Position numbers and translations under genes: made by a program
In this document: positions 33,666 through 62,699 of the stretch, piece by piece
How positions within the stretch are numbered: position 1 is the stretch's first letter
How the letters are laid out: each line of letters starts with the position of its first letter
Notes under the pieces: generated by a model
What the model was told of the DNA's origin: nothing
The model's database searches: none
What the model saw: only the letters and a program-made list of their open reading frames with translations
Assembly: GCF_014205015.1 (NCBI RefSeq)
Contig: NZ_JACHMO010000001.1
Span: forward strand, 930,001 to 994,000
DNA from: Saccharothrix ecbatanensis
GTDB lineage: Bacteria > Actinomycetota > Actinomycetes > Mycobacteriales > Pseudonocardiaceae
Length of the DNA: 64,000 nt
Direction: 5' to 3'

Positions 33666-33720
33666 CTGTTCGGGCCTGCGCCCGCGTGTGGTCGTGGTCG
33701 TGGTGGGGTGCTCCTCGGGG

Positions 33721-35512: not shown

Positions 35513-35745
35513 GGGGCCACCCCCTGCGCTAGGCTGCGGCCTGCTTCACGCACCACTCGACGAGGTGCTTGACGTAAGACCGAATCACCACAATCCCAAC
35601 CCTCACAGTTGTCCTCTGTCCCGTTGGCCTGAAGTACAGGTCAATCGAGCCGGAACAGGGTTGGTTTGCGGTGCGTTCAGATCCTCGACATGAACGACCA
35701 GCAGGAAGCCAGGCGCTCGACCTGAGAGCCGAAGCTGGAGGACTT
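35513..35745 (+). other. 233-base gap between lysis and tail genes
   Basis: The minus strand is open here and ends 'VVIRSYVKHLVEWCVKQAAA' at 35529, which looks protein-like over about 25 residues but has no plausible start site. I see no firm gene. Confidence 0.3.
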
Positions 35746-41823: not shown

Positions 41824-41829
41824 GAGCGC

Positions 41830-42503: not shown

Positions 42504-42553
42504 GTACAGGTCTCCTCCGTGGTCGGGTTGGCTACGTACCTCTCCGCGTTGGC

Positions 42554-43979: not shown

Positions 43980-44070
43980 GCGGACGACCTCCAGGAGGAA
44001 CGCGGGAGGGCCGCTCTCCTGGAAGTGGTGCCGGGAGGCGGGCAGCCTCCCGAGATGCGGGTACGAGGGT

Positions 44071-44487: not shown

Positions 44488-44801
44488 GTCTCCTCGCCCG
44501 CGTTCAGGCCGTCGACCTCCAACCCGGTCGCCTCGGCGCTGCGTTTGAGCAGGCCGTAGCGGGCCTCCATGCCGACCCCGGCGGGATGGCGTACCGCGAC
44601 GGTGAAGGCCGCCCGGTCGTGGCGGGGATCAGCGAAGACCTCGACCGGCAGCAGTTCGCCGCTGGTGACGCGGTGACCGGCGCCGCGCGCCACCGCGCCG
44701 ACCTGATCGGCCGCGGCCTGCACCGCGTCCCGGAAGCTGTCCGAGTTCAGCAGCTCGCGCACGCCGTCCCGGTCGAGGCGGAAGCCGTGGAAGGCGTCCA
44801 T
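44484..44801 (-). CDS. HK97 gp10-like head-tail joining protein
   Basis: 105 residues. Helical start 'LLNSDSFRDAVQAAADQVGA', then 'VRHPAGVGMEARYGLLKRSA', the layout of the HK97 gp10 family of head-tail connection proteins. ATG at 44801. Overlaps the terminator gene by four bases. Confidence 0.7.
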   Translation of the reverse strand: MDAFHGFRLDRDGVRELLNSDSFRDAVQAAADQVGAVARGAGHRVTSGELLPVEVFADPRHDRAAFTVAVRHPAGVGMEARYGLLKRSAEATGLEVDGLNAGEET

Positions 44802-44804
44802 CGT

Positions 44805-45107
44805 TCAGCCCTCCACGTGCTTGAGTCGGGTCTCGTAGTGGACGTGGCCGAACCGGGGTTCCCAGAGGTCGGGTTCGCCGTCGACCTCCAACACCCGGCC
44901 TTGCCACTCGATGCGCTCGCGGGCGGCCAGGCGTTCGATGCCGAACATCCGCCACGAGGTGACCACCGGGCGGCGGCCCGGTTCGATGGGTTCGGACGAG
45001 GTGACCGGCTGGAGCAGGCCCCACATCACCCGGCGCGGGGCGTCCGGCCCGTAGTCCAGGTCCGGGGTGGGGTTGTCGTAGGCGTCGGTGACCGGCGTCG
45101 GGGTCAC
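44805..45107 (-). CDS. Head closure / head-tail adaptor protein
   Basis: 100 residues, GTG start. 'WRMFGIERLAARERIEWQGR' and 'LEVDGEPDLWEPRFGHVHYE' are typical of small beta-barrel head-closure adaptors. It ends three bases before the gp10-like gene. Assignment by position and character. Confidence 0.65.
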   Translation of the reverse strand: MTPTPVTDAYDNPTPDLDYGPDAPRRVMWGLLQPVTSSEPIEPGRRPVVTSWRMFGIERLAARERIEWQGRVLEVDGEPDLWEPRFGHVHYETRLKHVEG

Positions 45108-45265
45108 GACGAGGAAGCGGTGAGGTAGCTAGATGCGTGCTCCAATCAGGTGAAACGAGGCTGAATCGCTTAAGTCGGCGGGAGAGTCCGCCGATGCTGG
45201 GAGGAGAAGCGCCGGACCCGTCACAACGGGCTGGCGCTCTGCCATATCCGGCGGATCCGTCGAGG
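45108..45265 (-). other. Intergenic gap with two hairpins in the connector operon
   Basis: Neighbouring connector genes normally abut; here 158 bases intervene. A CGGCGG/CCGCCG hairpin and a longer one spanning 45208-45238 are visible. This could be a terminator/promoter junction left by the inserted pentapeptide gene, or decay. No gene seen. Confidence 0.45.
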
Positions 45266-45616
45266 TCACACCGTCCAGATTGAGAACGCGCCGCGCGGCG
45301 CTGGCGCGGGCGGCCGGAGCAGGTCCAACTCGTCGTCGGTCAGGTAGAGCCCGCCGCCCTCGTGTGCGGCCGTGCGTGAATGCCCGCCCACCGTCTCGGA
45401 CTTGTTGCCGTCCGGCGGGGACGCCAACGCCCGCAGCACGGCCGTGGCGAGCACACCCGGCGCGGTCGCGGGCGGCGGATCGGACAGTTCCGGCACACGG
45501 GCACGGACGATCGCCGAGGCGTCACCGACCAGCACCGCCGCGCGAGCCTGCTGCTCGGCGGTGAGCTGTACCTCGGTGCGGGCCTGGACATCGGCGACGG
45601 TGGCCAAGGGTGTCAT
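45266..45616 (-). CDS. Head-tail connector protein (gp6/gp15-like)
   Basis: 116 residues from an ATG. 'PLATVADVQARTEVQLTAEQ' is the characteristic start of actinophage head-tail connector proteins, followed by a helical bundle and a C-terminal arm ending 'GAFSIWTV'. It forms a ring under the portal vertex in related phages. Confidence 0.75.
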   Translation of the reverse strand: MTPLATVADVQARTEVQLTAEQQARAAVLVGDASAIVRARVPELSDPPPATAPGVLATAVLRALASPPDGNKSETVGGHSRTAAHEGGGLYLTDDELDLLRPPAPAPRGAFSIWTV

Positions 45617-45658
45617 CCATCACCCCAGCGACCGGCGAGGAAATATCGCGACTGTTGG

Positions 45659-46774
45659 TTACCTTGAAGTCGGCAGCCGAACCCACCTTGCAGCATCGTC
45701 AGGCAGCAAATCGAATTGCCGCAGCACATCGGATACAGCCGCAGCCGAGAAATCGACCAGGCCGCTGGAGAACGTCGCGCGCCCGAAGTCGACTTGGCCG
45801 CCCGAGAAGCTCGATCCTACGAAGCTGACTTGGCTGCCGGAGAACGTCGCGCCCCAGAAGTTGACTTGGCTGCCGGAGAACGTCGCGCCCCAGAAGTTGA
45901 CTTGGCTGCCGGAGAACGTCGCGCGCCCGAAGTCGACTTGGCCGCCCGAGAAGCTCGATCCTACGAAGCTGACTTGGCCGCGGGGGAACGTTGCGTCACG
46001 GAAGATCATGATGGTTCCGGGCACGAGGTTGATCTTGGTGAGGTCGCCGCCGTCGAGTGTTGCGCCGGTGAAGTCGAAGACATGCCCGTTCCATGACACG
46101 GGGGACGTGGGGCGGAGATGTGCGGCGATGACACGGATAACGGTGTGGCGGACCTGTTGTTCCTCGCGATGGTCCGCAGTCGACGCGGCGCCAGCTGATG
46201 TCGGAGCCGGGTGCGTGGTGTCGCGGCGGGGGGATGGTTTGCGCAGTCCGAGTCCTCGGTTGCCCGATGGCGGTGTCGTGGTGTGTGGGTCGTAGGGCAT
46301 TCGCAGGTAGGCGCACAGGACGTCGATGCAGGTCTGGCGGTGCTCGTCCCAGTCGTCGGCGAGGGCGGCCATGGCGTAGATGCCTGCCAGACGGACAGCC
46401 GCCTGGGGTGAGCCGATGAGTTCGGATGCCTTCGTGAAGCGGTCGGTGAATGCCTTGGTGTCCTCGCGGCGTTCGGCGGCCTCGCCGAGTCGTTGTTTGC
46501 GGTAGGCGACGGTGAGGGCGATGACGCCGCCGATACCGCCGACCACGGTCAGCGCGATCTTGAGCCCATCGAACTTGTCCTGGGTGCTCGCAGGCCCGGA
46601 ACTCGCCGGACGCAGGGCGGGCTGTCCGAGCAATAGCCACAACGCCCAGGCGGTCAACGCGGCCACGACGACGCCCAAGAGCAGCCACAGGGCGATGTGG
46701 CCGGCGAAGGGCAGCCGCAGCGCCGGTCCACGTAGCGCCGGTCTGCGTCGCGCGGCGGTCCGCAGTACGCCCAT
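45659..46774 (-). CDS. Membrane protein with pentapeptide-like repeats, cargo gene in the head module
   Basis: 371 residues. Two N-terminal membrane helices (about 27-50 and 74-92), a coiled-coil/helical region ('KQRLGEAAERREDTKAFTDR', 'VRLAGIYAMAALADDW'), then from about 255 a right-handed beta-helix-type array of 12-residue units such as 'TFSGSQVNFWGA' and 'SFSGGQVDFGRA'. Such proteins (pentapeptide-repeat family) are frequent in actinomycetes; function unknown. It lies between the capsid and connector genes on the operon strand, where structural phages carry no such gene, so it is cargo. Good ribosome site (GGGAGG) before the ATG at 46774. Confidence 0.8.
   Translation of the reverse strand: MGVLRTAARRRPALRGPALRLPFAGHIALWLLLGVVVAALTAWALWLLLGQPALRPASSGPASTQDKFDGLKIALTVVGGIGGVIALTVAYRKQRLGEAAERREDTKAFTDRFTKASELIGSPQAAVRLAGIYAMAALADDWDEHRQTCIDVLCAYLRMPYDPHTTTPPSGNRGLGLRKPSPRRDTTHPAPTSAGAASTADHREEQQVRHTVIRVIAAHLRPTSPVSWNGHVFDFTGATLDGGDLTKINLVPGTIMIFRDATFPRGQVSFVGSSFSGGQVDFGRATFSGSQVNFWGATFSGSQVNFWGATFSGSQVSFVGSSFSGGQVDFGRATFSSGLVDFSAAAVSDVLRQFDLLPDDAARWVRLPTSR
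45760..45990 (-). repeat. Tandem 36-base coding repeats in the pentapeptide-like gene
   Basis: Units of 36 bases (12 residues) are repeated about seven times, and a block of two or three units occurs twice nearly identically (about 45766-45830 and 45912-45976). The near-identity at DNA level implies recent duplication or gene conversion. Confidence 0.75.
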
Positions 46775-46849
46775 CGGCTGCCCTCCCTCGGGTCGGTTGC
46801 TCCTACTTGATCGTGCCGCACCACCGAACCGTCACGACGCCGAACGTGT

Positions 46850-47029
46850 CTATTCGGTGGTGGGAGTACGAGGTGGACGACCGCCGGCCGCGCGGATGCA
46901 GAGATCGGCGGGCAGGGCGCCCAGGGCCTCGATGATGATCTTGTCGGTCACTTCGGCCTCGCCGTCGGTGAACCTCACGCCCAGGTCGTGGATCACGAGC
47001 TGCTTGTAGCGGTTGCTGGTGAACTTCAC
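46850..47029 (-). CDS. Small phage protein after the capsid gene
   Basis: 59 residues from a GTG overlapping the capsid stop (GTGA). Reads 'KFTSNRYKQLVIHDLGVRF' and 'IIIEALGALPADLCIRAAGG'. Small genes here often encode capsid decoration or head-fibre pieces; I do not recognise this one. Translational coupling supports its reality. Confidence 0.6.
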   Translation of the reverse strand: MKFTSNRYKQLVIHDLGVRFTDGEAEVTDKIIIEALGALPADLCIRAAGGRPPRTPTTE

Positions 47030-48021
47030 GCACCACCGCCTGTCGGGCCGGTTGTGAGGTTGGTGGTCTTGCCGTGTGCGATCTCCGGCCCGTACTCCAG
47101 GCTGATCTCGCCGTAGATCTGCGCCCGGTCCGTGCTGCCGGTCTTGGCGAGCGGTTCGGAGAACAGGAATCCCTGTCCGGGCTTTTCCAGCAGTACCGGG
47201 GCACACTGGTCGAGGCTGACCACCTGCACCGTGTCGGTGGGCATGTACCGGTTGAGCATGATGTTGACGCGGCCGAAGTCGGTTTCGATTGTGGACACCG
47301 CGACGCCGCCGACGTTGCGGGTCTCCTCGCGGTAGTTCTTCTTGGTGACGAACTCGTTGGTGAGCTGCCGCTTCTGCCAGGCGTTGCACATCAGCGTGGC
47401 CGTCTCGCTGATCTGGATGCCGCCGTTCTCCCACACCTTCTGCATCAGGTCGATGATCAGCGCCTCGGTCAGCGGCTGCGGGGTGGCGTTGGTGATGACG
47501 TTGGTGCGGGTGGCCTCCAGGATGCCCCGCGTTTTGCGCACCGTGGAGTTGTCGGTGGGCTCCTGGTACTTGCCGATCAGGAACGTCAACTCGACGTCGC
47601 GGGCGATCTGCACGAGCGCCTGGCGGGTCTGCCAGTCCATCTCGTTCGGCACGGCGTTGGTGCCGTCGATCGCGGCGGCGTTCGGGTTGGCCGCCCAGGT
47701 CCCGGCGAACATGTTCTGCGTCGACTGCCGGGTGTAGGTGATGCCGACGGTTTCCTGGTGGATTTCCAGAACGTTGCGGTCTTGGCCCCGAATGCGGGTC
47801 TCGGCGGGCGGGGCGTCCGCACCCTCCAGGCGCTGGCGGTTGGGGTCGGGCGGGCGCAGGTCGTACACGGTCCAGGTGTGCACGATTGCGTTCGCCCGCC
47901 GCCCGCCGGTCAGACCGCCGATCGAGGACAGGAACGACGTGTCCGTGGGCGTGAGGCCGAACAGCTCGCCGACGTAGTTGGGACTGTTGTAGGTGTTCGC
48001 TATCGCGGCGATACCGGGCAA
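47026..48021 (-). CDS. Major capsid protein, SU10/DUF5309 type
   Basis: 331 residues from a TTG with AAGGAGA six bases upstream. HK97-fold capsid of the DUF5309/SU10 family: 'NSPNYVGELFGLTPTDTSFL', 'QETVGITYTRQSTQNMFAG', 'RTNVITNATPQPLTEALI', 'GEISLEYGPEIAHGKTTNL'. It forms the icosahedral head. Intact, unlike the scaffold and MuF genes next to it. Confidence 0.88.
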   Translation of the reverse strand: MPGIAAIANTYNSPNYVGELFGLTPTDTSFLSSIGGLTGGRRANAIVHTWTVYDLRPPDPNRQRLEGADAPPAETRIRGQDRNVLEIHQETVGITYTRQSTQNMFAGTWAANPNAAAIDGTNAVPNEMDWQTRQALVQIARDVELTFLIGKYQEPTDNSTVRKTRGILEATRTNVITNATPQPLTEALIIDLMQKVWENGGIQISETATLMCNAWQKRQLTNEFVTKKNYREETRNVGGVAVSTIETDFGRVNIMLNRYMPTDTVQVVSLDQCAPVLLEKPGQGFLFSEPLAKTGSTDRAQIYGEISLEYGPEIAHGKTTNLTTGPTGGGA

Positions 48022-48037
48022 CGATTCTCCTTACGGG

Positions 48038-48701
48038 TCAAGGGATACGGGGTGCCGCCGTGCGGTCCTGCTCGGCGAGACGCTGGTTCTTCAGCGAGAT
48101 GGCCGTGGCCCAGTCGCTACGCGCCTCGGCCTCGCGGATCTGCTCGGCGACACCGGACGGCCCGCCCTGCCGTTGCCCCTGCGACGGGTCGGGCGCAGGT
48201 CGGCGCGGCCCGTCGACGCGGGCCAGGTGCGGGCGTTGGGCGAGCACCGCGGCGAGGTCGGCGGTGATGGCGGCGGTGTCGACCGTGCCGTCCTCGCCGA
48301 GGTAGCGGTCCCGGTTGTCCAGGTAGCGCGGAGCGTCGGTCGGATCGGCCCAGCCGGACGCGGCGGCGCGGATCTCCGCGTCCACCGCCGTGCGGCGCAG
48401 CGCGGCGAGCTGCGCTTCGGCGGCCGTCGCGCGCTCGGCGGCCTTCTCCGCGTCGGTCTTGTTCGCCGCCTCGATCTCGTCCAGGCGGCGGGCCTTCTCG
48501 CGGTTCTCCCGCGCCTTGGCCTCCGCACCGGTCAGCTTCGTGCGGGCCTCCTCGTACAGCGCCCGGTAATCAGGCTCGGCGTCCTTCCCGGTGCCCTCGG
48601 CCGGGTGGGGACGGGGCGGGCGGTTCAGCGGCCGGTGGAGGGGCTGAGGGCGGCTGTGCGGGCGGTTCCGGGGCGGGTGGGGTGGTCGGGTTGTCGGACA
48701 G
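48038..48701 (-). pseudogene. Capsid scaffolding protein, frameshifted in its Pro-rich linker
   Basis: Starts best at a CTG (48701) with AAAGGGGG about nine bases upstream, reading 'SDNPTTPPAPEPPAQPPSAP'. After a frame change in a G-run region near 48605 it continues 'DYRALYEEARTKLTGAEAKA' through a long Ala/Glu/Arg coiled coil to a conserved C-terminus 'SDWATAISLKNQRLAEQ' that binds capsid subunits in this protein class. Full length about 220 residues. The break lies in a homopolymer-rich stretch, so a base-calling error is plausible here. Confidence 0.7.
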
Positions 48702-48759
48702 GGCGGAAACCCCCTTTCGTGTGACGTGCGCAGCCGGGCGGACGTGGGAAGATCCGCGC

Positions 48760-48966
48760 GTGAACAACCGGCCGGTGCGCACGCTCGCTGTCGCGGCGCT
48801 GCTCGCCACCTCGGCCGGCGCCCAGGTCATGGCCGGTGTGGATGGCGGTCTCACCGTTGCGCAGGTGGCCTGGTTAGCGGGAACCGTCCTGGCCGCAGGA
48901 GCGGCCGGACTCTTGACTGGCTCGCCCGTCGAAAGAAAAAAAGGGCTCGTCTATCTACCTAGATAG
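48760..48966 (+). CDS. Possible small two-helix membrane protein in the phage head module
   Basis: 68 residues from a GTG with GGGAAG about nine bases upstream, opposite to the operon. Two hydrophobic stretches ('TLAVAALLATSAGAQVMAGV' and 'VAWLAGTVLAAGAAGLL'). It ends in an A-rich, lower-GC stretch with a small perfect palindrome (48951-48957 with 48960-48966). The base composition at the 3' end differs from neighbours, as in a moron. No family recognised. Confidence 0.5.
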   Translation: MNNRPVRTLAVAALLATSAGAQVMAGVDGGLTVAQVAWLAGTVLAAGAAGLLTGSPVERKKGLVYLPR

Positions 48967-49019
48967 ATCGGCTTCAAAAACGCTGAAGTTGACCTTGCCA
49001 ACCTGTGTGACCTGCGTGC

Positions 49020-49950
49020 CTACCTGAGGTAGCCGAAGCGGCGTAGCTGCCGCACCAGCTCGGCCTGGTCTTCACCCACGGTGTTGACGAGTTGGGCGGC
49101 GGTGGGCCGGGGCACCTGGGAGCGCCGGTACCGGCCGCTGTTCTTGGCCAGTTCGCCGCGCTGCTGGCCGATGCCCCGGCTGGTGATCGCCTCGCGGGTG
49201 AACTCGTATCCGCCAGCCACGTAGACCTGGTTGCGACGGCGGGCGTTGACCACGCGGCCGATGTCGGCACCGGCCCGGATCGCGGCGGCCTCGCCCTTGC
49301 CGAACGCCTTGTCCTGCTGGGCGAGGGTCATCCCGTCGAACAGTGCTCGTGGGCTGTCGGAGCTGCCGCCCTCGCGCCACTGCTCCGAGGTCACCGGCCG
49401 CATCGAGCAGTCACAGCGCGGGTGCCGCAGGAACCCGGTCGAGTACCGGTACAACCGGCCCGACAGCAGGATGCAGCGCCCGCACGCGGGCAGGGTCACC
49501 ACCCGCTCGTACCCGGCGATGTCGGGTTCGACCACCGCGCCGACGTGCAGCGCGAGGCGGGCGGTGTCGTTGGTCTCGGTGGACACGTAGGTCAGCAGCT
49601 TCGCCAGGCCGGGCTTCGGTCTCGGGCACGTCGGCGGCGCGGGCACGGCGGTAGAAGCCGAACGCGAAGTCCGTCAACGCCGAGATCAACAGCCCGTTGG
49701 CGGCCAGGCCGACGAACGCCGAGGCCACCAGCAGCGCGAGCGGAGCCGACACCGCGCCCACAGCCAGCAGCGTGCCCGCGATGTAGAGCGGTGCCAGCGC
49801 CGCCGACTCCTGCTGCGCCTCCTCCACCGCCGCTACGATCTGCGGTCGGATCTCCTCCACCCAGGAGGCGAACGGGTCGCGCGGGTCGAGCTGCCGCCAG
49901 GCGGACTGGGCCTGGTCCACGGCCACGCGGACGATGCGCTGCTGTGTCAA
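49020..49950 (-). pseudogene. MuF-type minor capsid protein, frameshifted
   Basis: The N-terminal piece (from a TTG at 49950) has 'FASWVEEIRPQIVAAVEEAQ' and a hydrophobic region. A frame change near 49615 is needed to continue into 'GLAKLLTYVSTETNDTARLA', the Cys/His motif of MuF domains ('ACGRCILLSGRLYR', then 'GFLRHPRCDCSMRPV'), and a C-terminal 'YEFTREAITSRGIGQQRGEL'. Intact length would be about 310 residues. MuF proteins join portal and capsid and can carry toxin domains; none is seen here. No portal gene follows upstream. Confidence 0.75.
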
Positions 49951-51125: not shown

Positions 51126-54100
51126 TCAGCCGTGAGTGGCTTCGTAGGCGTCGACGAGGTCCTGAGAGATCCGGCCGCGATCGGCCACCGGCCTGCCGGT
51201 TTGGCGCGCCCACGCCCGGACCAGTGTCGGGTCGACCGTCCTCGTGGCGCGCGGCGCGGGTTCCGGTTGGTTCCCAATCACGATGCGCTCGCGCGCGGCG
51301 TCGCGGATCTCCTGCGGGGTGCGCGTCGAATCGATCGGGGGCGGGACGACCAGTTCGGCGACGGTGAGGTTGTCCAACTCCAGGCCTTCCGCGACCTGTC
51401 GGATGTGAGTGTGGTGGCTGAAGACGACGATCTGCCACTGGCGTGCGAGCCGTGCCATCACCTTGAGCGTTGCTGCGGCCCTGGCGTCGTCGAAAGTCAT
51501 CAGCACGTCGTCGAGGACGACCGGCAGCGTCGGGAGCCCGCGGGTCCGCCTGTCGTCCTGCAACGACTCGATGCCGGCCAGGCGGAGGGCGAGGAACGCC
51601 TGGTCGGCCGTCCCTTCCGACAGCTCGTCCGGTTTCCGGGGGCGCTCATCGGCACCGACGATGCGCAACGACCGCCCGTTGGCGTCGCTGTACGTGTGCA
51701 GGGCGACATAACGCCCTCCGGTCAACTCTTCGAGGATGCGCCCGGCGGTGTCGAGCAGCGGTGAGGCGTGCTCCCGCTCGTACGCCTCCAACTCGTCGCG
51801 CAGGACCGTGCGCTGGATCTCGGCGACCAGGTACTCCTCGACCTCGTCGGCCAGCGCGGCCAGTCGTTCGTGCGCTTTGGCGTGCAGTTCGGCGGCGCCG
51901 GGCCGGGTGATCAGCGCTTGGTGGCGTTGGGAGAGCTCGCCGTAACGGCGTAGCGCTGCTTCGTGCGTCTCGTCGGCGTCCTCGTACCGCTGCCGCGCAG
52001 TGTCGACGTCGATGCGCAGTTGTTCCTCGTCGACATCGCTCAACTCGGCGACCAACTGCCGCAGGTCGGTTCGCGGCAGCGCGATGCGCACCACTTCGCT
52101 GTGCTGGTTGACGTCGGTCGACAGGCTGGCCAGTTCCTCGCCGCGTTCAGCCGCGGCGTCGAGGTCCGAAGCGTCGGTCCGGCGACGCAAGTCGTCCAGA
52201 GCGGCGACGGCCAGAAGCCGTTGCCCGGCGTGCTCTTCGAGCTTTCGGCGCAACGAGTCGAGCCTGTCCGCGAGGTTGTCCGCAGTGCCCTTGGCCTCCA
52301 ACGCCGACTGGACCCGCGCAGACAGGGTGTCGAGCGCGTCGGTGATGCCGTCCTCCTCGACACCCGAACGTGCGGTGAGTGCCGCCAGATCCTCCACGAA
52401 CCCCTGATGCCGTTCAGCCAGCTGTCGTGCCCGTGCACGGAGGCCGGTCGCGGTGACGTGTGACGCGCGGGCTCGCGCGACGATGTCGCGCCGCCGGTAC
52501 CACCCGGTCGGGCTCAGATCGGGGAGCTGGGCGGCGGCCAAAGCTGTCCGCCACCGGTCAGCTGACCAGTCCCGCTGCGAACGTGCCCGTTCGAGTTCCC
52601 GCTCCGCCTCCTGCCGGATGGTCCGCACGTTCTGCGCGACCGCACGTGCTTCGCGTGCGTAGTCGTCCTCGGCCAGCAGCCGCCTCGCTGCTTCGAGCAG
52701 GCTGTCCAGATCCGCCTCGGGCCGAGGTCGTCCCGCCCGAGCGAGTACTTCCGCCAGGTAGTTGCGCCGCTCCTCGACCGCCGGCCGCAGGTCCTCGGCG
52801 GTGCGGCTCGCGGTGACCTCCTGCCCTTCGGCCGTGAGCGCTCCGGCCAGCGACTCGTGGAGCACGAGCGCATCGCTGACGGGCGGATGCGGAACGCCAA
52901 CCGGTTTCCAGATGGCCTCCCACGCCTGGCAGGCCGCTGTGTACGCGCGTTCTGCTTCCGCGACCTTCGATCCGGCGGCGACCGCCTCGGCACGGGTCTT
53001 CGCCAGTTCGGCGGTCAGGATTCTGCGTCGTGCCACCATCTCGACGTGCTCCGCGAGCAGGTCGCCGACGCGGTCGGCCTCGCGCACGGCGCGTTCGACC
53101 TCCACCGGCAGACCGGGCGCTCGCGCGGGCGGTTGACCCTCCAGCCAAGCGCGCACGACCTCGGTGATCAGTTCGTCGCGTGCCGCACGGGCAGCCGTCA
53201 CCTCTGCAGGGTCCGGGACGTGGTGCAGTTCGTCCCCCGACAGTTGCCGTTGGACATCGGCCGACCGCCGTTCGACGTCGTCCAGTTCTCGACGGGCCGT
53301 CCGGATGACACCGTCGGAATCCGAGATTTCGTCGCAGGCGCCTATCACCGACTCGCGGGATGGCAGTGCCCCGAGACGCGTGTGTGCGGGCAGGCCCACC
53401 GTCGTGAGAAGGCGGGCGTGCTCGTGTCGCGCATCCGCCACCGCTTCAGCAGCGCGCCGGAAAGCGGTCACCACCGAATCCTCGGCCTCGATGGCACTCA
53501 CCACTTCACGCAGTGACGCGACGATCTGCACGTCCGGCGCCTCCGCGTTGGGCGTAGCGGGTTCGCGGTCACCTGCGGCTTCTACCTGGCGTTGTCGCTC
53601 GGCCACGACGGCGTCCGCCTGGACGAACGCCTCCGCTGCGGCATCCAACTCGGCGACGCGATCCTCGCCGACCCACAGCGTGCTCAGCAGCACGTCGACC
53701 GGCTGGTCGACGTTGCCGGTCAGGTCGACCAGCAGCGCGCGGGTGCCCGCGTCGCTTTCATCGGCTTCCGCTAGGCAGACCCGGGCCTGCTCCGCGTCGT
53801 CCAGTCTGGCTGCGGACTCTCGCTTCAGGCGCTCCACCAGGTCGCGGTCCCCGAGGGCGGGGTCCTCGGAAGCGATGCCGGCCAGCTGCGCGGACGTCGC
53901 GGCGATCTCGCCCTCGATGTCGACGATTGCACTGTCGGTGAGGTGGAGTCGTGCTGCGGTCCCGGCGTGGAGTGCGAGATCTTCGGCGTCCAGGCAAGGC
54001 CCTGCCGACCGCAGGGTTGCGATCCTGGCTTCGGCTTGAGCAAGCTGCCGGACCCTGTCGACCACCCGTAGCCGCGCCTCCTGGTCGGTCAGCCCGGCGA

Positions 54101-54770
54101 CGGCGGCATCCTTGACCCTCCTGGTCCGCTCGACGTCCTCGCCGACCTGGCGCAGCACCTCGCGGATGGCAGTGACGTCGGCGGCGAGCGCAGTGGCTTC
54201 CTCCACGTCGTGGACCGCCTGTTCGTACTCGGCGATTGCACGACGTGCCCGAACGGTCTTGTTCCCCCGGTGCTCCTTGTACAGCGAGTCGGCACGCGCC
54301 GAGAGCGAGTCCAGCAGGTGGTGCACCGACAGCCCGCTGCGCGCTCGGAAGATCAGGGACGCGAGGTCGCCTTCACCCTTGAACAGGTGCTCCCCGCCCT
54401 TGCGCAGCTCCTCGTGAGACAGGCCGAACGAGGTCCGCCACCGGCCGCGATCGTCCCCGTCCCCCTGCCACACCGCGGGAACCACCCTGTGCGTGGTGGT
54501 GTCGACCAACCCGCTCGCACTTCGCTCGACGGGGACCTCGGTGCCATCGGGCAGGACGAGCACCGCGCTGACGGCCAGTTCCTGCCGGCGGAAGTGGAAG
54601 GCGCGCTTCGAGGACTGCGGTATCGACCACAGCAGGTCGGCCAACGCGTCGAGCGCGGTGGACTTGCCGGTCTCGTTGGGGCCGAGCACCACGCTCAGAC
54701 CGGTGCCGAGTTCGATCGTCCGGTTCCGGAACGCGCCGTAGCTGTCCAGCGTGAGCAGCCGAACCCTCAT
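51126..54770 (-). CDS. SbcC/YhaN-type SMC-like ATPase fused to an Lsr2-like DNA-binding domain
   Basis: 1214 residues. N-terminal ATPase half with Walker A 'GPNETGKST' (30-38) and the typical opening 'MRVRLLTLDSYGAF'; a very long coiled coil (about 170-1000); C-terminal ATPase half with the ABC signature 'LSEGTADQAFLALRLA' (about 1050-1065), Walker B 'LPVVLDDVLMTFDD' (about 1082-1095) and H-loop 'VVFSHHTH'. This is the YhaN/SbcC architecture, which with a Mre11-like nuclease processes DNA ends. A linker follows, then about 35 residues (1180-1214: 'LVRAWARQTGRPVADRGRIS' and 'QDLVDAYEA') that match the C-terminal domain of Lsr2, including the RGR tripeptide that inserts into the AT-rich minor groove. 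Lsr2 is the actinobacterial silencer of foreign DNA. Overlaps the nuclease gene by four bases. Intact. Confidence 0.85.
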   Translation of the reverse strand: MRVRLLTLDSYGAFRNRTIELGTGLSVVLGPNETGKSTALDALADLLWSIPQSSKRAFHFRRQELAVSAVLVLPDGTEVPVERSASGLVDTTTHRVVPAVWQGDGDDRGRWRTSFGLSHEELRKGGEHLFKGEGDLASLIFRARSGLSVHHLLDSLSARADSLYKEHRGNKTVRARRAIAEYEQAVHDVEEATALAADVTAIREVLRQVGEDVERTRRVKDAAVAGLTDQEARLRVVDRVRQLAQAEARIATLRSAGPCLDAEDLALHAGTAARLHLTDSAIVDIEGEIAATSAQLAGIASEDPALGDRDLVERLKRESAARLDDAEQARVCLAEADESDAGTRALLVDLTGNVDQPVDVLLSTLWVGEDRVAELDAAAEAFVQADAVVAERQRQVEAAGDREPATPNAEAPDVQIVASLREVVSAIEAEDSVVTAFRRAAEAVADARHEHARLLTTVGLPAHTRLGALPSRESVIGACDEISDSDGVIRTARRELDDVERRSADVQRQLSGDELHHVPDPAEVTAARAARDELITEVVRAWLEGQPPARAPGLPVEVERAVREADRVGDLLAEHVEMVARRRILTAELAKTRAEAVAAGSKVAEAERAYTAACQAWEAIWKPVGVPHPPVSDALVLHESLAGALTAEGQEVTASRTAEDLRPAVEERRNYLAEVLARAGRPRPEADLDSLLEAARRLLAEDDYAREARAVAQNVRTIRQEAERELERARSQRDWSADRWRTALAAAQLPDLSPTGWYRRRDIVARARASHVTATGLRARARQLAERHQGFVEDLAALTARSGVEEDGITDALDTLSARVQSALEAKGTADNLADRLDSLRRKLEEHAGQRLLAVAALDDLRRRTDASDLDAAAERGEELASLSTDVNQHSEVVRIALPRTDLRQLVAELSDVDEEQLRIDVDTARQRYEDADETHEAALRRYGELSQRHQALITRPGAAELHAKAHERLAALADEVEEYLVAEIQRTVLRDELEAYEREHASPLLDTAGRILEELTGGRYVALHTYSDANGRSLRIVGADERPRKPDELSEGTADQAFLALRLAGIESLQDDRRTRGLPTLPVVLDDVLMTFDDARAAATLKVMARLARQWQIVVFSHHTHIRQVAEGLELDNLTVAELVVPPPIDSTRTPQEIRDAARERIVIGNQPEPAPRATRTVDPTLVRAWARQTGRPVADRGRISQDLVDAYEATHG

Positions 54771-56011: not shown

Positions 56012-56303
56012 CGTTGCACGCTCCGGAGTTTCGTGTGGATCGCGGGCAGCGGGACCAGGTGGCGATCATGCAAAGGAATCATGGCTCGCACATCGCAGCC
56101 CTTCACGGCAGCGCTACATCGACCTTCCACACGATTGGGTGAGTAACACTCGCGTATTGGCTCGTTGCTGCGACAAGGCGAAAGTGTCACCGGAGTAATT
56201 CACCCATTCGGCCGCTAACGCTGGGTCGAACTGACGCGACGTAGCCGCTGTCACCGATTAGAACGACCGTCCGTGTGCACGCAGCGCGAGTTAAGGGGTC
56301 CGA
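56012..56303. promoter_or_regulatory. 292-base divergent promoter region between the SbcDC and Shango operons
   Basis: No gene here. A small near-palindrome (GAGT-AACA-CTC) lies near 56145-56155, and the region is less GC-rich than the genes, as expected for two back-to-back promoters. I cannot assign specific -35/-10 boxes with confidence. Confidence 0.5.
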
Positions 56304-58577
56304 GTGGGGCTGTTGGGCCGAGTGCGGCAGCTGTTCGAGGGCAAGCCCGCTTTCGTGGCGCCACCGCGACCCGCGCCGCCGCCGGCAGTACCCGTGCCGC
56401 CACCGGTGCCCGTGTCGCGTTCGACCCGGACCGGTCCACCACCGCCTTCCCGTCCGCAGCCGGTACCGCGTCGTCAGCCCTCGGTGTCCGCCCCGACTTG
56501 GGTACAGGCCGGTGCCACATCATCAGTGGCCGGCCGGTCGCTGCCCGGCGGGATGCTCTACATCGGGAAGTTGTCCCGGGGTGACGCGGTACCCGCTCGG
56601 AACGTCGAGGTGATCGACCCGACCTTGCCGATCGACTGGCGCAAGCCCGACTTCGCCGGTCGGGACATGGACTACTGGCCCGCCTACCACTCGATCACGC
56701 CTCGCAGCCGGGCCGCGTACCTGCTGTGGCTCGAGGGCGGCAGGTGGGCGCCGGACGCCTACATCGGCTACGTGTTCCTGTACTTCTACGGCCTGGAACG
56801 CCGGGCGCTGGTCGATGCGCAGCAGGACCCGGCCGCGCGGGCCGACCTGCCGCGCATCCTCGGCGAGGTCGTGCGCCTGCTGACCGTCTACGGCGACAAC
56901 TCGTCGTTCCGGCAGTACGCGACCGAGTTCCAACAGGTCCTGCGAGCCCTCATCACCAGGGGAGAGGGGCCCGCGCCCGACCCGGTCGAGCATGACAAGT
57001 GGCCCTCGCCGCTCACGCTGCGCGTCGGCATCGGCCGCTTCGCCGCCGAGGGACGTCCCGTCCCGGTGGACTGGGCGTGGTCGTGGGCCATGCTCCACCC
57101 CGAGATCTACGCGCGCACGCCCGCGACGCGGTGTCCGAACGAGTTCCGCGCGCTGTTCGCCACTCGCTACCGGGCCCGCCATGCCGACGGCATCAAGGTC
57201 CGCCCCCTGAAGAGCCGGGTGGACCTCTCCTACCGCCCTGCCAGTGGCGGGCTGCGGACGACGAGTTGGCACCTGGACGTGCCTGACGTGCTCACCGCCG
57301 CCGCGCCGACGAAGGCGCTCAAGGCGCTGATCGAGTCGTGCACCGATGACCTGGACGCCTACAGCCGCCTGATCGGCCGGCAACCCGAGGCGGCGGGGAC
57401 ACTGCCCGCGCTGGCCCTGCTGCCGGACGAACTGTTCACCGGTGACCTCGACGGTCTGCGCCCGGTGCGCGACCTGGTCGACCGGACCCTCCCGGACGAT
57501 GCATCGCAGGCCCGGTTCGAGCTGGCCGACCTGACCTCGCTGTGGCCGTCCCGCACACCCGGGAAGTTCGCGAAGGCCGACGCGGTCGGACTGGCGCAAC
57601 TGCTGGACAAGTTCGGCATCGGCATCGAGCCCGACGTGCGCATGGGCGCACCCGTGCAGAGCACGGGACCGGCCGTGCTGTTCCGGGTCACCGCCGCGCA
57701 GCCGGCGACCGCGACGCCCGAGTACACGGCCGCCACGACGTTGCTGCACCTCGCCGCGGTCGTCTCGACGGCCGATGACGACGTGTCCGCCGCCGAACGT
57801 GACCACCTGGTCTCCCACCTGGAGTCGAGCCTGCACCTGACGCCGGGAGAGCGGATCCGGTTGACCGCCCACCTGGACTGGTTGCTGGCCTCGAAGCTGA
57901 AGCTGACCGGGCTCACCAAGCGCCTGGGCGGCCTGACCGACGCGCAACGCGCCCACGTCGCCGAGTTCGCCACCGCGATCGCGGCCGTGGACGGCGTCGT
58001 CTCGCCGGGCGAGGTCGACACACTGCGCAAGATCTACAAGCTGCTGGGGCAGGAGCCGGACTCGGTGTACACCGAACTGCACGCTCTCACCGCCGCGTCC
58101 ACCCGCCCCGCGCCGGCCACCGAACCCGTGGTCGTCGTGCCCGCGGACACCGGCCCGACCGGCTACCTCATCCCGCCACCACCGAAGCCGGAGCCACCGG
58201 TCGGCGCCGTGCGGCTCGACCCCGCCTTGGTGGAGGCCAAGATGCGGGAAAGCGCCGCCGTAGCCGCGCTGCTCGCCGACGTCTTCGACGACGAGCCGGA
58301 AGAAGCAGCACCACCGCCACCCGCACCTGTTGTCGCGGTGGACCTCGTCGGTTCCCTCGACGCCACCCACTCCACCTTGCTGCGGGAACTGGCCACTCGA
58401 CCGTCCTGGAGCCGTGCCGACTTCGACGCCCTGTGCGCGAAGGCCGGTCTGCTGCCCGAGGGTGCGCTGGACGTGCTCAACGAAGCGGCGGTCGAGGCCG
58501 CCGACGAACCGGTCGTCGAGGACGACGACACCCAGCTCGTGATCAACGACTACGCAATGGGAGAACTGCTCGCATGA
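56304..58577 (+). CDS. sngA: TerB-domain protein, Shango component A
   Basis: 757 residues from a GTG with TTAAGGGG upstream. A Pro-rich disordered N-terminus (about 18-65), a TerB-N type domain (about 85-330, 'DMDYWPAYHSITPRSRAAYL'), a TerB domain (about 475-585) with two acidic metal-type turns ('DDDVSAAERD' and 'DGVVSPGEVD'), a Pro-rich linker, and a TerB-C type domain to the end ('LLRELATRPSWSRADFDALC', 'INDYAMGELL'). TerB domains were first defined in tellurite resistance; TerB-N/TerB-C proteins occur with an ATPase and a helicase in the Shango anti-phage system. The stop overlaps the next ATG (ATGA). The role is probably as scaffold or sensor; its activity is not established. Confidence 0.85.
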   Translation: MGLLGRVRQLFEGKPAFVAPPRPAPPPAVPVPPPVPVSRSTRTGPPPPSRPQPVPRRQPSVSAPTWVQAGATSSVAGRSLPGGMLYIGKLSRGDAVPARNVEVIDPTLPIDWRKPDFAGRDMDYWPAYHSITPRSRAAYLLWLEGGRWAPDAYIGYVFLYFYGLERRALVDAQQDPAARADLPRILGEVVRLLTVYGDNSSFRQYATEFQQVLRALITRGEGPAPDPVEHDKWPSPLTLRVGIGRFAAEGRPVPVDWAWSWAMLHPEIYARTPATRCPNEFRALFATRYRARHADGIKVRPLKSRVDLSYRPASGGLRTTSWHLDVPDVLTAAAPTKALKALIESCTDDLDAYSRLIGRQPEAAGTLPALALLPDELFTGDLDGLRPVRDLVDRTLPDDASQARFELADLTSLWPSRTPGKFAKADAVGLAQLLDKFGIGIEPDVRMGAPVQSTGPAVLFRVTAAQPATATPEYTAATTLLHLAAVVSTADDDVSAAERDHLVSHLESSLHLTPGERIRLTAHLDWLLASKLKLTGLTKRLGGLTDAQRAHVAEFATAIAAVDGVVSPGEVDTLRKIYKLLGQEPDSVYTELHALTAASTRPAPATEPVVVVPADTGPTGYLIPPPPKPEPPVGAVRLDPALVEAKMRESAAVAALLADVFDDEPEEAAPPPPAPVVAVDLVGSLDATHSTLLRELATRPSWSRADFDALCAKAGLLPEGALDVLNEAAVEAADEPVVEDDDTQLVINDYAMGELLA

Positions 58578-59896
58578 ACGACACGCGCATCCGCCCCCGC
58601 GACCGCGACGCGATCATCCAGTCGCTGCGGGCAGGCGTCGTGCCCCGCTCGGGCCAGCAGCACGTCCAGGTCGGGCGTGCGCGCGAGGTCGAGTCGCTGC
58701 TGCGCGACCTCGACAGCGTCGCGGACGGCGGCTCCACGGCCCGCTTCGTCATCGGCGAGTACGGCTCGGGCAAGACGTTCTTCCTGAACCTCATCCGCGC
58801 CGCCGCGCTGAAGAAGCGCCTGGTCACGATGCACGCCGACCTCGCGCCCGACCGTCGCCTGCACGCCACCGGCGGCCAGGCCCGCAGCCTCTACGCCGAA
58901 CTGGCCCGCAACACCTCGACCTCCGCCAAGCCTGACGGCGGCGCGCTGGCAGGCATCGTCGAACGCTTCGTCTCCCAGGCGCTCACCACCGCTCGCGAGC
59001 ACGGCACGTCACCGGAGAACGTCATCCGGCAGCGCATGGCCGAGCTGTCCGAACTGGTCGGCGGCTACGACTTCGGCACCGTCGTGGAGGCCTACTGGCG
59101 TGGCCACGACACCGGCAACGAACAGCTCAAGATCGACGCGGTGCGCTGGCTGCGCGGCGAGTTCACCACCAAGACCGAGGCCCGCGCCGCGCTCGGCGTG
59201 CGCACGATCGTGGACGACGCGAGCTTCTACGACCAGCTCAAGCTGCTGTCCCGCTTCGTGCGAATGGCCGGCTACAGCGGCCTGCTGGTCTGTCTGGACG
59301 AGATGGTCAACCTCTACAAGCTGACCTCCTCGCAGGCCCGTTCCGCCAACTACGAGCAGATCCTGCGCATCGTCAACGACAGCCTCCAGGGCATCAGCAC
59401 CCACGTGGGCTTCCTGTTCGGCGGCACGCCGGAGTTCCTCATGGACACCCGCCGCGGCCTGTACGCCTACGAGGCGTTGCAGTCCCGCCTGGCGGAGAAC
59501 GCCTTCGCCGCCAACGGCTTGGTGGACCATTCCGGTCCGGTGCTGCGGCTGACCAACCTCGCCCAGGAGGACTTCTACGTCCTGCTCACCAAACTGCGCC
59601 ACGTGTACGCCTCGGGCGACCCGCAGCAGTACCTCGTGCCCGACGAGGCGCTGCACGCGTTCATGCACCACTGCTCGCAGAACATCGGTGACGCCTACTT
59701 CCGCACCCCGCGCACTACGATCCGGGAGTTCCTCAACCTGCTGTCCGTGCTGGAGCACAACCCCGGCCAGCCGTGGGAACCACTCGTGGGCGGCGTGCGG
59801 TTCGAGGCGGAGTCGAACCCCGACCTCGAACCACTGGAGCCGGCCACGCAGGACGAGTCGAGGGTGGACGATGAGCTGGCCACCTTCCGCCTCTGA
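58574..59896 (+). CDS. sngB: DUF2791 (BrxD-like) ATPase, Shango component B
   Basis: 440 residues. P-loop ATPase of the BREX ATP-binding family: 'GQQHVQVGRAREVESLLRDL' near the start, Walker A 'GEYGSGKTFFLNLI' (about 60-73), Walker B 'LLVCLDEMVNLYKL' (about 237-250), then 'ANYEQILRIVNDSLQG' and 'HVGFLFGGTPEFLMD' typical of the family, and 'YFRTPRTTIREFLNLLSVLE' at the C-terminus. It is coupled to sngA (ATGA) and overlaps the start of the helicase gene by 26 bases. In BREX type 2 a related ATPase (BrxD) pairs with helicase BrxHI, but no PglX/PglZ genes are here. Confidence 0.87.
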   Translation: MNDTRIRPRDRDAIIQSLRAGVVPRSGQQHVQVGRAREVESLLRDLDSVADGGSTARFVIGEYGSGKTFFLNLIRAAALKKRLVTMHADLAPDRRLHATGGQARSLYAELARNTSTSAKPDGGALAGIVERFVSQALTTAREHGTSPENVIRQRMAELSELVGGYDFGTVVEAYWRGHDTGNEQLKIDAVRWLRGEFTTKTEARAALGVRTIVDDASFYDQLKLLSRFVRMAGYSGLLVCLDEMVNLYKLTSSQARSANYEQILRIVNDSLQGISTHVGFLFGGTPEFLMDTRRGLYAYEALQSRLAENAFAANGLVDHSGPVLRLTNLAQEDFYVLLTKLRHVYASGDPQQYLVPDEALHAFMHHCSQNIGDAYFRTPRTTIREFLNLLSVLEHNPGQPWEPLVGGVRFEAESNPDLEPLEPATQDESRVDDELATFRL

Positions 59897-62699
59897 GGCC
59901 CCACCGGGATCCTCGCAGTTCTTCCGCCTGCACCAGAAGGTCCAGCGCTGGATCCACCGGCAGGGGTGGCCGAAGCTCAACGACGCTCAGGAGCAAGCAA
60001 TCCCCTTGGTGCTCAAGGGGACCGAGGACGTGATCGTCTCGGCGGCCACCGCGTCGGGCAAGACGGAGGCGGCGTTCCTGCCGATCTGTTCCGCCCTGCT
60101 CGACGAGGTTGACGACGGCGGCATCCGGGTGCTCTACGTGTCACCGCTCAAGGCGCTGATCAACGATCAGCACCGCCGCCTCGACGAGTTGTGCGAAGAA
60201 CTCGACCTGCCGGTACATCGCTGGCACGGCGACGTGCCCGGTTCGGCCAAGGCCAAGGTCCTCAACAAGCCCGACGGCATCCTGCTCATCACGCCGGAGT
60301 CACTGGAGGCGATGTTCGTCCTGCGCGGTATGGAGATCGGCTGGTTGCTGCGTGCTCTGCGGTGGGTAGTGATCGACGAGATGCACTCGTTCATGGGCAC
60401 CGAGCGCGGCGCGCAGCTCCAGTCCTTGCTGCACCGTGTCGAGCTGGCAACCCGGCGTCGCATCCCCCGCATCGGGCTGTCGGCCACTCTGGGCAGCATG
60501 GAGTCGGCGCGCGACTACCTGCGTCCGGGCAACGGCCGGAATGTCCACCTCCTAACCGCCTCGCACCAGAGCGGGGACATCAGCGCCATCATCCGCGGGT
60601 ACGTCCATAAGGCGCCCACCACGGAGGATGAGGAATCCGACGAGGGCACCTCCGTCGAGCGAATCTGCGAACATGTATTCACCACCCTGCGTGGCGGCAA
60701 CAACCTCGTGTTCTTCGACCGGCGCGGCGACGTCGAGCTGTACGCCGACCGGCTGCGCCGCCGCAGCGAGGAACGTGCCGTGCCCAACGAGTTCTTCCCC
60801 CACCACGGAAGCCTCGCCAAAGACGTGCGCGAGCACGTCGAAGACCTGCTCAAGAGCAACCGGCCCGTCACCGTGATGTGCACCTCCACGCTGGAGATGG
60901 GCATCGACATCGGCACCCTCACCTCCGTCGCCCAGGTCGGGGCACCACCCTCGGTCGCGAGCCTGCGCCAGCGCATCGGCCGCTCCGGACGTCGTGGCGA
61001 GCCCGCCGTGCTGCGCATGTACGTGACCGCCCAGGAGATCGACGCCGACATCGCGCCCCAGGACGAGCTGCGTGCCGAGCTGTTCCAGGCCGTGGCGATG
61101 ATGAGCCTGCTGTCCGAGCGCTGGTACGAGCCCGCAGACACATCCTCGCTGCACCTGTCCACGCTCATCCAGCAGATCATGTCCGTCATCGCCCAGCACC
61201 AAGGCGCCCGCCCGGCCGAGCTGTTCCAAGCGCTATGCATCTCCGGATCGTTCGCGCACGTCGACGAGACCACCTTCGCCACCCTGCTGCGCGACCTCGG
61301 TCAAGCCGAACTCGTCCAGCAGGAACCCGACGGCCTGCTCCTGCTCGGCAGGGTGGGGGAGCGGATCGTCAACCACTACTCGTTCTACGCGGTCTTCGCG
61401 GAGAAGCAGGAGTACCGGCTGGTCCACGGCTCCCGCACCCTCGGCGTTCTGCACGTGACCACACCCACCGAAGTCGGTTCGCTCGTCATCTTCGCGGGCA
61501 GGCGCTGGAAGATCGTCTCCGTGGACGACCAGGCGGCCCTGATCCAGGTGGAGCCCTCACACGGCGGACGGGCACCCAAGTTCGCCGGCGGTCGTGCCGA
61601 GATCCACGACGAAGTCCGCCGCCGGATGCGCGTCTGGTACGAATCCGACGACGTCCCCGCCTACCTCGACGCCACCGCCCAACGCCTCCTCGACGAAGGC
61701 CGCGCGGCCTACCGCCGCTTCGACCTCACCCGAAACCCCGCGCTGGCCAAGGGCAACGACACCATCGTCTTCCCTTGGCGCGGCGATCGCATCCTCAACA
61801 CCCTGACGGCCTGGCTGACCCGTGCGGGTGTGCCGGCGGTCCGGGACGGCGTCGCCTTCACCGTGCCCAAGTGCACTCCGGCCCAACTGCGCGCGGTCCT
61901 CCAGCAACTGTTCCTGGAGGACGACACCACCGCCGAGGACATCGCCGCCGCCCTACCTGACACCGCGGTCGAGAAGCACGACGTCCACCTCGGCAAACCA
62001 CTGCGCATCCGTGGCTACGCCGCCGGGTGCCTGGACATGGCGGGCGCACGTTCCGCACTTGCCGACCTGGTCGACCGGCTGCCCGAGCACGATGTCGACG
62101 TCATCACCGGAATCCCCTTCGCCCCGGCACCTCTCGTCACCACCCCGACGGCCTACGCGGTCGTGGACGTCGAAACCACCGGCTTCGCCGCCTGGGGCAA
62201 GGACCGGGTCATCGAGGTAGCGGTCATCCGCGTCGCCCTCGACGGCACCGTCCTCGGCGAGTGGAGCGCACTGGTCGACCCACAACGTCCACTCGCGGCG
62301 ACCGAAGTCCACGGCATCACCGAGGACGACCTGGCCGGTGCACCCGTGTTCGCCGACGTGGCGCCTACCCTGGCCGCACACTTGGACGGCGCCGTCGTCG
62401 TAGCCCACAACGCCTCGTTCGACTTGAGCTTCCTGAATGCGGAGTTCGCCCGCACCACCACCCCACTCACCCTGAGCGCGACGCTGTGCACGATGAAGCT
62501 CGACGACCACGTCCACCAGGTGGGTCGCCGCAAACTGCACGACTGCATCACCGCGATCGGCATATGCACCACTCAGGGCACGGCCCACCGAGCCCTCTCC
62601 GACGCCAGGGCCACCGCCGACCTGCTGCGGCACTACCTGACCCACACGCCCCACGATGTGCGAAAACTCGTCACCGCGTCCGAGCGCAGCACCTCGTAG
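59871..62699 (+). CDS. sngC: DEAD/DEAH helicase with C-terminal DEDDh exonuclease, Shango component C
   Basis: 942 residues. Lhr/BrxHI-like superfamily 2 helicase: motif I 'SAATASGKTEA' (about 57-67), motif II 'VIDEMHSF' (about 168-175), motif III 'SATLG' (about 203), motif VI 'QRIGRSGRRG' (about 366-375), then a winged-helix/accessory region. Residues about 760-930 are an added DEDDh 3'-5' exonuclease of the DnaQ/epsilon type: 'AVVDVETTGFA' (first D and E), 'HGITEDDL', 'VVAHNASFDLSFLN' (second D) and 'HRALSDARATAD' (H and last D), all catalytic residues present. ATP-driven unwinding plus exonuclease would destroy DNA; that activity is inference. The ATG at 59871 lies within the end of sngB. 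Confidence 0.88.
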   Translation: MSWPPSASEAPPGSSQFFRLHQKVQRWIHRQGWPKLNDAQEQAIPLVLKGTEDVIVSAATASGKTEAAFLPICSALLDEVDDGGIRVLYVSPLKALINDQHRRLDELCEELDLPVHRWHGDVPGSAKAKVLNKPDGILLITPESLEAMFVLRGMEIGWLLRALRWVVIDEMHSFMGTERGAQLQSLLHRVELATRRRIPRIGLSATLGSMESARDYLRPGNGRNVHLLTASHQSGDISAIIRGYVHKAPTTEDEESDEGTSVERICEHVFTTLRGGNNLVFFDRRGDVELYADRLRRRSEERAVPNEFFPHHGSLAKDVREHVEDLLKSNRPVTVMCTSTLEMGIDIGTLTSVAQVGAPPSVASLRQRIGRSGRRGEPAVLRMYVTAQEIDADIAPQDELRAELFQAVAMMSLLSERWYEPADTSSLHLSTLIQQIMSVIAQHQGARPAELFQALCISGSFAHVDETTFATLLRDLGQAELVQQEPDGLLLLGRVGERIVNHYSFYAVFAEKQEYRLVHGSRTLGVLHVTTPTEVGSLVIFAGRRWKIVSVDDQAALIQVEPSHGGRAPKFAGGRAEIHDEVRRRMRVWYESDDVPAYLDATAQRLLDEGRAAYRRFDLTRNPALAKGNDTIVFPWRGDRILNTLTAWLTRAGVPAVRDGVAFTVPKCTPAQLRAVLQQLFLEDDTTAEDIAAALPDTAVEKHDVHLGKPLRIRGYAAGCLDMAGARSALADLVDRLPEHDVDVITGIPFAPAPLVTTPTAYAVVDVETTGFAAWGKDRVIEVAVIRVALDGTVLGEWSALVDPQRPLAATEVHGITEDDLAGAPVFADVAPTLAAHLDGAVVVAHNASFDLSFLNAEFARTTTPLTLSATLCTMKLDDHVHQVGRRKLHDCITAIGICTTQGTAHRALSDARATADLLRHYLTHTPHDVRKLVTASERSTS

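Follow-up and report, generated by a model that had tools for sequence, protein, structure and literature searches.

An SbcCD-type gene pair with an Lsr2-type DNA-binding tail beside the Shango anti-phage system of Saccharothrix ecbatanensis

Saccharothrix ecbatanensis (Actinomycetota, Pseudonocardiaceae) carries a gene pair coding for a YhaN/SbcC-type ATPase (P0001) and an SbcD-type nuclease (P0002). The pair lies in a stretch of 64,000 nucleotides (contig NZ_JACHMO010000001.1, positions 930,001 to 994,000), called here the window, to which coordinates refer unless a locus or genome is named. The sbcD gene stands head-to-head with a complete Shango anti-phage system, SngABC, adjacent to a truncated prophage, and the ATPase ends in a DNA-binding domain of the Lsr2 type. 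The Shango neighbourhood is the main context of the pair and was absent from an earlier reading of this DNA, made by a model from the letters and their translations (the sequence-only reading).

The ATPase, its tail and its partner nuclease

P0001 contains a Walker A motif (GPNETGKS, from residue 30), the signature LSEG (1050), a Walker B motif (LPVVLDD, around 1084) and SHH (1118), and its N-terminal ATPase lobe matches AAA_27 (Pfam PF13514, E=8.8e-46). Its gene overlaps sbcD by 4 bases, and the Mre11 catalytic motifs of P0002 are intact. An AAA_27 lobe with Walker A, signature and Walker B next to an Mre11-type nuclease places the pair with the YhaN/YhaO (SbcCD-like) pairs, in which a metallophosphoesterase gene also overlaps a long ATPase gene; plasmid homologues of this type are annotated as YhaN family protein or AAA family ATPase plus DNA repair exonuclease. 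The window pair differs from them in its C-terminal extension ending in an Lsr2 domain and in the adjoining SngABC. It also departs from classical SbcC/Rad50, since the CxxC zinc hook was not found in P0001, whose cysteines are only at 259, 332, 479 and 614.

The last ~32 residues of P0001 match PF23359 (Lsr2_DNA-bd) with E=1e-11 and 44.4 bits, against a curated cut-off of 26.9. A genome-wide profile search places the match at the same position, and three matches were obtained in the 9.69-Mb genome: P0001 and two small Lsr2-like genes. The tail sequence also matches the solved Lsr2 domains 6qkp, 6qkq and 2kng. When the last 109 residues are modelled with AlphaFold, the RGR loop is flanked by two helices (predicted local distance difference test, pLDDT, 78-92 for the block), and the best match of the modelled tail in the PDB (Foldseek) is the Lsr2 C-domain 2kng (probability 1.00, root-mean-square deviation 0.5 over 32 columns), followed by 6qkp; the predicted fold is that of an Lsr2 C-domain. 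According to the available part of PMC3374832, C-terminal domains of Lsr2 bind minor grooves rich in adenine and thymine (AT) via Q/RGR, and P0001 has the RGR form. The likeness to Lsr2, which silences foreign DNA in actinobacteria, lies in this DNA-binding domain; in P0001 it is the tail of a 1214-residue ATPase, and a Pfam search of P0001 up to E=1 did not match the N-terminal oligomerisation domain of Lsr2.

Profile, sequence and predicted fold together confirm the tail as an Lsr2-type DNA-binding domain. The sequence-only reading had proposed an Lsr2-like C-terminal domain with RGR on an SbcC/YhaN-type ATPase partnered by an SbcD-type nuclease, and had named structure prediction as a check; each of these proposals was borne out. 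Chance similarity to Lsr2 is ruled out by the PF23359 match, the matches to solved domains and the predicted fold, and an accident of frame or assembly by the single open frame and the recurrence of the tail in 24 loci. In an alignment of 13 of the 24 tails, some rows of which stop short of the ATPase core, all seven invariant columns are inside the Lsr2 domain and the linker is unconstrained. The glycine of RGR is invariant and each arginine column is at least 90% conserved. That the sequence-only reading was aware of no such fusion agrees with our search: no paper on an Lsr2-SbcC fusion was found by title or abstract in the open-access literature, preprints and most subscription papers lying outside that search.

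A Rad50-like ATPase in a defence setting recalls Lamassu, and P0001 gave a weak match to the LmuB profile (E=3.4e-12). The accessible part of PMC10586767 describes LmuB as a protein of ~650 amino acids, combined with LmuA and often LmuC. Lamassu membership was rejected on a partial and weak LmuB match and on the absence of LmuA and LmuC from the results for the pair's immediate neighbours. LmuA was listed for none of nine proteins scanned, both immediate neighbours (the gene at 50306-50866 and SngA) included; three of the nine were later judged non-genes, and the SngC results are the best 25 of 68 families. A phage-borne system was also discarded: relatives of P0001 are absent from the viral contigs searched, and a phage collection gave one 31% fragment. 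SngB is present in four viral contigs, none with an SbcD or Mre11 match by tblastn. The same genome has a second, distant YhaN/SbcC-like gene (G000:C1:9377860-9378429), whose match ends around residue 1128-1149 of P0001, before the tail.

The Shango system and its tail-bearing neighbours

The three Shango genes stand in the order SngA, SngB, SngC, with strong PADLOC matches (Table 1). The window system differs from Shango in an additional DEDDh exonuclease domain in a C-terminal extension of SngC, which is common to Nonomuraea L081 (PF00929) and absent from Actinokineospora L039. The SngC start at 59871 is tentative, the enclosing open reading frame being 59688-62699. In the available text of PMC10250203 Shango is a three-gene system, SbcCD is not mentioned, and protection in Pseudomonas is modest (10-100-fold in plating) and extends to many phages. 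The consulted section of PMC11096173 names Shango alongside the anti-plasmid system ApsAB in islands of E. coli, and the review PMC12926258 gives, in its accessible part, the mechanism as unknown.

Twenty-four distinct tail-bearing loci were seen, each counted once by contig and coordinates: the window, L019-L023, L025-L027, L029, L039-L043, L069, L072, L073, L142, L212-L214, L216 and L217. L029, L040 and L041, broken or partial in the assemblies, are within this count; duplicates (L070, L071, L077, L139-L141, L143, L215) and three remnants are left out. SngABC lies in the flanks of six of the 24. In five of these (window, L020, L021, L025 and L069) sbcD and sngA are head-to-head, and in the sixth, Actinokineospora L039, SbcD, SbcC, SngA, SngB and SngC are consecutive on one strand. 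With a cut-off of E<=1e-120, SngB was matched in 7 of 394 genomes of the class (own genome included), from which the probability of meeting it next to any one locus by chance is expected to be well under 1%. The adjacency of Shango and tail far exceeds random placement, though the loci are related.

The window and L020 share one Sng type and have two SbcCD types in an equivalent head-to-head position. SngA, SngB and SngC are 94, 97 and 91% identical between the two loci, against 51% for SbcC and 65% for SbcD; the simplest account of these identities is that the SbcCD beside window-type Shango was exchanged at least once. Between L020 and L021 the values are 87, 96 and 83% for SngA, SngB and SngC, 77% for SbcC and 87% for SbcD. 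Co-exchange of the SngA N-terminus with SbcCD was considered and dropped, as SngA residues 1-65 vary between all locus pairs compared. Mapping the link to Shango onto the tail rows of the SbcD tree takes three label changes, two of them forced by starred branches. In genome G020 (L074, near 8921-10887) a C-terminal piece of a window-type ATPase is fused directly to a piece of SngC, a scar of cassette deletion.

Distribution and origin of the tail

Some match to the C-terminal 274 residues of P0001 is found in 51 of 297 genomes of the family. The match spans the ATPase part and the tail in 12, among which G020 holds a fragment, leaving 11 intact genes; the tail is an accessory feature. The orthologue match stops before the tail in 12 genomes of one genus (g5, which includes Pseudonocardia oroxyli), and the remaining genomes have weaker matches to distant relatives. 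Tail-only remnants exist in G019 (L076:9533-9718) and, beside its intact gene, in G008 (L068:9138-9350), as signs of turnover. Among 55 relatives, seven PF23359 matches were in open reading frames longer than 1000 amino acids, all of them these ATPases (among the matches listed). In a 296-genome sample of the class, all six Frankiaceae (f104) genomes with a match carry the tail.

The tail is an addition to a complete ATPase: beyond SHH/THH, eight tail-less orthologues, six from the Pseudonocardia group and two from Actinospicaceae, extend for 24-41 residues, the window protein for 94 and that of L020 for 95. In the SbcD tree (47 rows) the tail-bearing pairs and the tail-less Pseudonocardia form one 26-row group with support 100/100, and the tail was seen in no row outside it. 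On this tree the tail marks one actinobacterial clade. It may have been gained once and then lost, or gained twice; the branch order (Frankia set, Pseudonocardia, other tails) fits both.

The sequence-only reading was to fall if the tail proved general in related SbcC genes irrespective of mobile context, and it had called for a survey of homologues for co-occurrence with defence genes. The tail is not in all related SbcC-like genes, as the 11 intact copies indicate. However, it does occur irrespective of mobile context: the window copy is beside Shango, and with only 6 of 24 loci so placed the tail is not tied to a defence or mobile setting. It is best regarded as a trait of this SbcCD lineage, and in the window it is used in a Shango setting.

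Mre11-Rad50 pairs seen from the Shango side

Thirteen SngABC loci were reached without SbcCD as the starting point (L081-L085, L104, L153, L154 and L160-L164, with a weak SngA in L164). The set excludes five coriobacterial loci with SngB-like genes (L105-L109) for want of an SngA match by tblastn, and of the SngC plasmid records the first 40 of 710 were listed and seven viewed. An Mre11-Rad50-type pair, unrelated to the window SbcCD, accompanies SngABC in three of the 13 (L083, L153, L161), a count that is not from a fair sample, since the haloarchaeal L153 and L154 were chosen because L083 had a pair, and in which L161 matches by construction, its genes being included in the models used for the survey.

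The haloarchaeal plasmids L083 and L153, which are related (Mre11 45% identical), carry SngABC, Mre11, Rad50, NurA, one further gene and HerA or an ATP-binding protein. In the actinobacterial L161 an SbcD (PF00149, PF12320) and a hook-bearing SbcC are divergent to SngA, between a weakly HerA-like gene of 660 residues and a gene of 322 residues; a Pfam family was found for neither of these two, and the L161 proteins gave no Lsr2 match. The Rad50 hooks are CPTC in L083 and CPVC in L161. These sets resemble the window in having such a pair beside SngABC, and differ from it in the hook-bearing Rad50 and the extra genes. HerA plus NurA in L161, as in haloarchaea, was considered and rejected: the HerA-like match is weak (E=7e-12 to the L153 protein) and NurA gave no match.

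Halobaculum L198 and the Streptomyces plasmid L201 have Mre11-Rad50 sets with no Shango in the viewed stretch. The four-gene run of the latter (L201:7027-14596) is 44-58% identical to that of L161 and lies beside TIGR02680, TIGR02678 and DUF2397 genes, which we take to be Wadjet-like. In L160, where no SbcCD was found near SngABC, the gene directly upstream of SngA (L160:13537-14325) encodes a 262-residue protein that combines DUF6461 with an Lsr2 domain at its N-terminus (PF23359, E=4e-13). The pairing of Shango with Mre11-Rad50 is recurrent but optional. No pertinent paper joining Shango and Rad50 was found by title in the open-access literature.

Surroundings of the cassette

The prophage late region to the left of the cassette encodes an endolysin, tape measure, tail tube, head-tail adaptor, SU10-type major capsid protein and a fragment of a head maturation protease. 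SngC of Lentzea cavernae adjoins a protease fragment and a related capsid gene. An AbiTii domain gene (42554-43384, +) lies within the late region, and a NACHT and HEAT-repeat protein of 1779 residues, possibly an NLR-type defence protein, is encoded at 27572-32911 (-). The gene at 50306-50866 (-), directly downstream of the ATPase gene, encodes DUF6907; a copy also adjoins the tail remnant in G008. To the right of the cassette are genes for an M78/HTH protein, a nitroreductase and a GAF histidine kinase, and further chromosomal genes.

Table 1. Coordinates of the cassette, its parts and neighbouring or comparable features
Feature	Coordinates	Strand	Details
Truncated prophage late region	32997..49646	-	left of cassette
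YhaN/SbcC-type ATPase P0001	51126..54770	-	1214 aa
Lsr2-type DNA-binding domain	51138..51233	-	residues 1180-1211 of P0001; PF23359
RGR motif	51171..51179	-	P0001 residues 1198-1200
SbcD/YhaO/Mre11-type nuclease P0002	54767..56011	-	414 aa, GTG start
Divergent intergenic region sbcD-sngA	56012..56303	.	292 bp, guanine plus cytosine (GC) 60%
SngA (P0003)	56304..58577	+	TerB_N, TerB, TerB_C (Pfam); PADLOC SngA E=2.9e-87
SngB	58574..59896	+	BrxC/D-type ATPase, 440 aa; PADLOC SngB E=2.3e-180; PF10923 E=1.5e-154
SngC	59871..62699	+	DEAD/DEAH helicase; PADLOC SngC E=1.9e-281; PF00270, PF00929
L161 run	L161:7133-16287		SngABC divergent from weakly HerA-like ATPase, SbcD, hook-bearing SbcC, 322-aa gene

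Possible role of the tail-bearing pair

The explanation that we favour, with about even confidence, is that the pair forms a DNA-end nuclease, held to DNA by a tail that prefers AT, and works here with Shango. It is preferred because Lsr2 domains bind AT grooves, because complexes of the Rad50 type recognise DNA ends that are free, closed by a hairpin or linked to protein, and because Lamassu suggests that a Rad50-like ATPase can act as a sensor in defence, the last two points following the available text of PMC10586767. A YhaN/YhaO-type Mre11-Rad50 (SbcCD-like) complex would bind and cut DNA ends or hairpins, and a flexible linker past the ATPase head carries the Lsr2 domain, in which RGR would occupy the minor groove of AT-rich tracts. 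Since a presumed SbcC2-SbcD2 complex would hold two tails, the tail most likely acts as a tether, through which the nuclease is loaded or retained on AT-rich stretches. In a GC-rich host such stretches are enriched in incoming DNA, such as that of phages or plasmids, and by analogy with Lsr2 biology the window pair may prefer xenogeneic DNA. Coupled to SngABC, the complex could supply or process ends and recruit the TerB, BrxD-like and helicase-exonuclease proteins, which would then stop the invader.

Several observations weigh against this explanation. Eighteen of the 24 tail-bearing loci are without Shango in the examined flanks (~5-10 kb per side where contigs allow; short in L022, L040, L041 and L213). 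A neighbour scan covered seven of these 18, with 1-3 proteins each, and found ordinary genes in five: ornithine cyclodeaminase-like and MDMPI genes in Umezawaea L019, a short-chain dehydrogenase, prephenate dehydratase and CoA-ligase-like protein in Frankia L026, DeoR and a T5orf172-domain gene in Actinosynnema L023, and an oxidoreductase (L041) and a glycosyltransferase (L043) in Kineococcus. L142 has an integrase and an OLD-like gene, and the scan of L042 was without matches. Because of the ordinary genes at five of seven loci, the tail is no mark of defence by itself; its use as a marker of defence loci was dropped on the Frankiaceae result, as the examined flanks of the six tail genomes, one on a 5.5-kb contig, contain no Shango. 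Conversely, SngABC lies beside a tail-less pair in Actinospica L046, tail and Shango being uncorrelated, and three alphaproteobacterial plasmid YhaN pairs (of 227 matching records) gave no tail match and had no annotated Shango nearby. Ten of the 13 loci approached from the Shango side gave no Mre11/Rad50 neighbour with a model of 50 SbcD/Mre11 sequences, and the uneven choice of that set counts here too. The Foldseek E-value of the best match, 2kng, is 0.057, RGR is altered to SGR in Kineococcus L043 and to RGK in Actinokineospora L039, and the cassette itself is not AT-rich.

Much of this speaks for a rival that we consider a serious contender, if short of even: an accessory DNA-repair nuclease, with no part in defence, whose tail is a general tether gained in actinobacteria, and whose adjacency to Shango reflects the gathering of accessory DNA-processing genes in islands. 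The ordinary neighbours of tail pairs in Frankia, Umezawaea and Kineococcus, the Shango-free Frankiaceae and the Shango loci lacking Mre11/Rad50 agree with such a role, as do the common chromosomal locus of the tail-bearing pair in three close genomes (L023, L072, L073) and the grouping of tail-bearing with tail-less Pseudonocardia pairs in the SbcD tree. Furthermore, the part of PMC10250203 available indicates that the three Shango genes alone protected PAO1, where the strain's own nucleases might contribute. However, crowding in islands would not lead one to expect the re-pairing of different SbcCD types in an equal head-to-head layout, the one-strand run of L039 or the unrelated Mre11-Rad50 pairs beside SngABC at three further loci, and the G020 scar joining window-type ATPase and SngC pieces also stands against it.

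Two other roles for the tail seem improbable. It could be mainly regulatory, binding the divergent promoter, an Lsr2-coated prophage or other AT-rich DNA, and so controlling cassette expression or parking the nuclease on silenced DNA. The 60% GC of the sbcD-sngA intergenic region, against 65-74% per 2 kb in the window, and the adjoining prophage fit such a role, which is nonetheless unlikely: at 60% GC the region is AT-rich only relative to its surroundings, and the tail is retained at loci with very different surroundings. Slighter still are the chances that the tail has lost DNA binding and is now a vestige or an adaptor between proteins. The SGR and RGK variants would suit that idea; against it are the predicted Lsr2 fold and the seven invariant columns, all within the domain, in 13 diverse tails whose linker varies.

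Beyond the favoured tethered end nuclease, a broader scheme, rather doubtful at present, would make Shango a system with a modular DNA-end arm. Mre11-Rad50 complexes would have been recruited in several independent events, among actinobacteria as well as haloarchaea, and one actinobacterial line would have added the DNA-binding domain of a silencer, so that self and non-self would be told apart by base composition; the SbcCD type would be exchanged and SngABC kept near-constant. A supersystem of Shango and end processing across domains of life is possible.

A pair of DNA-end enzymes with a borrowed Lsr2 tip beside Shango suggests a means of aiming enzymes of this kind at incoming DNA. Should the tail guide the nuclease, this would be a natural DNA-end enzyme with a base-composition filter borrowed from a xenogeneic silencer, and the recurrent pairing of Shango with Mre11-Rad50 would offer a lead on the target of Shango.

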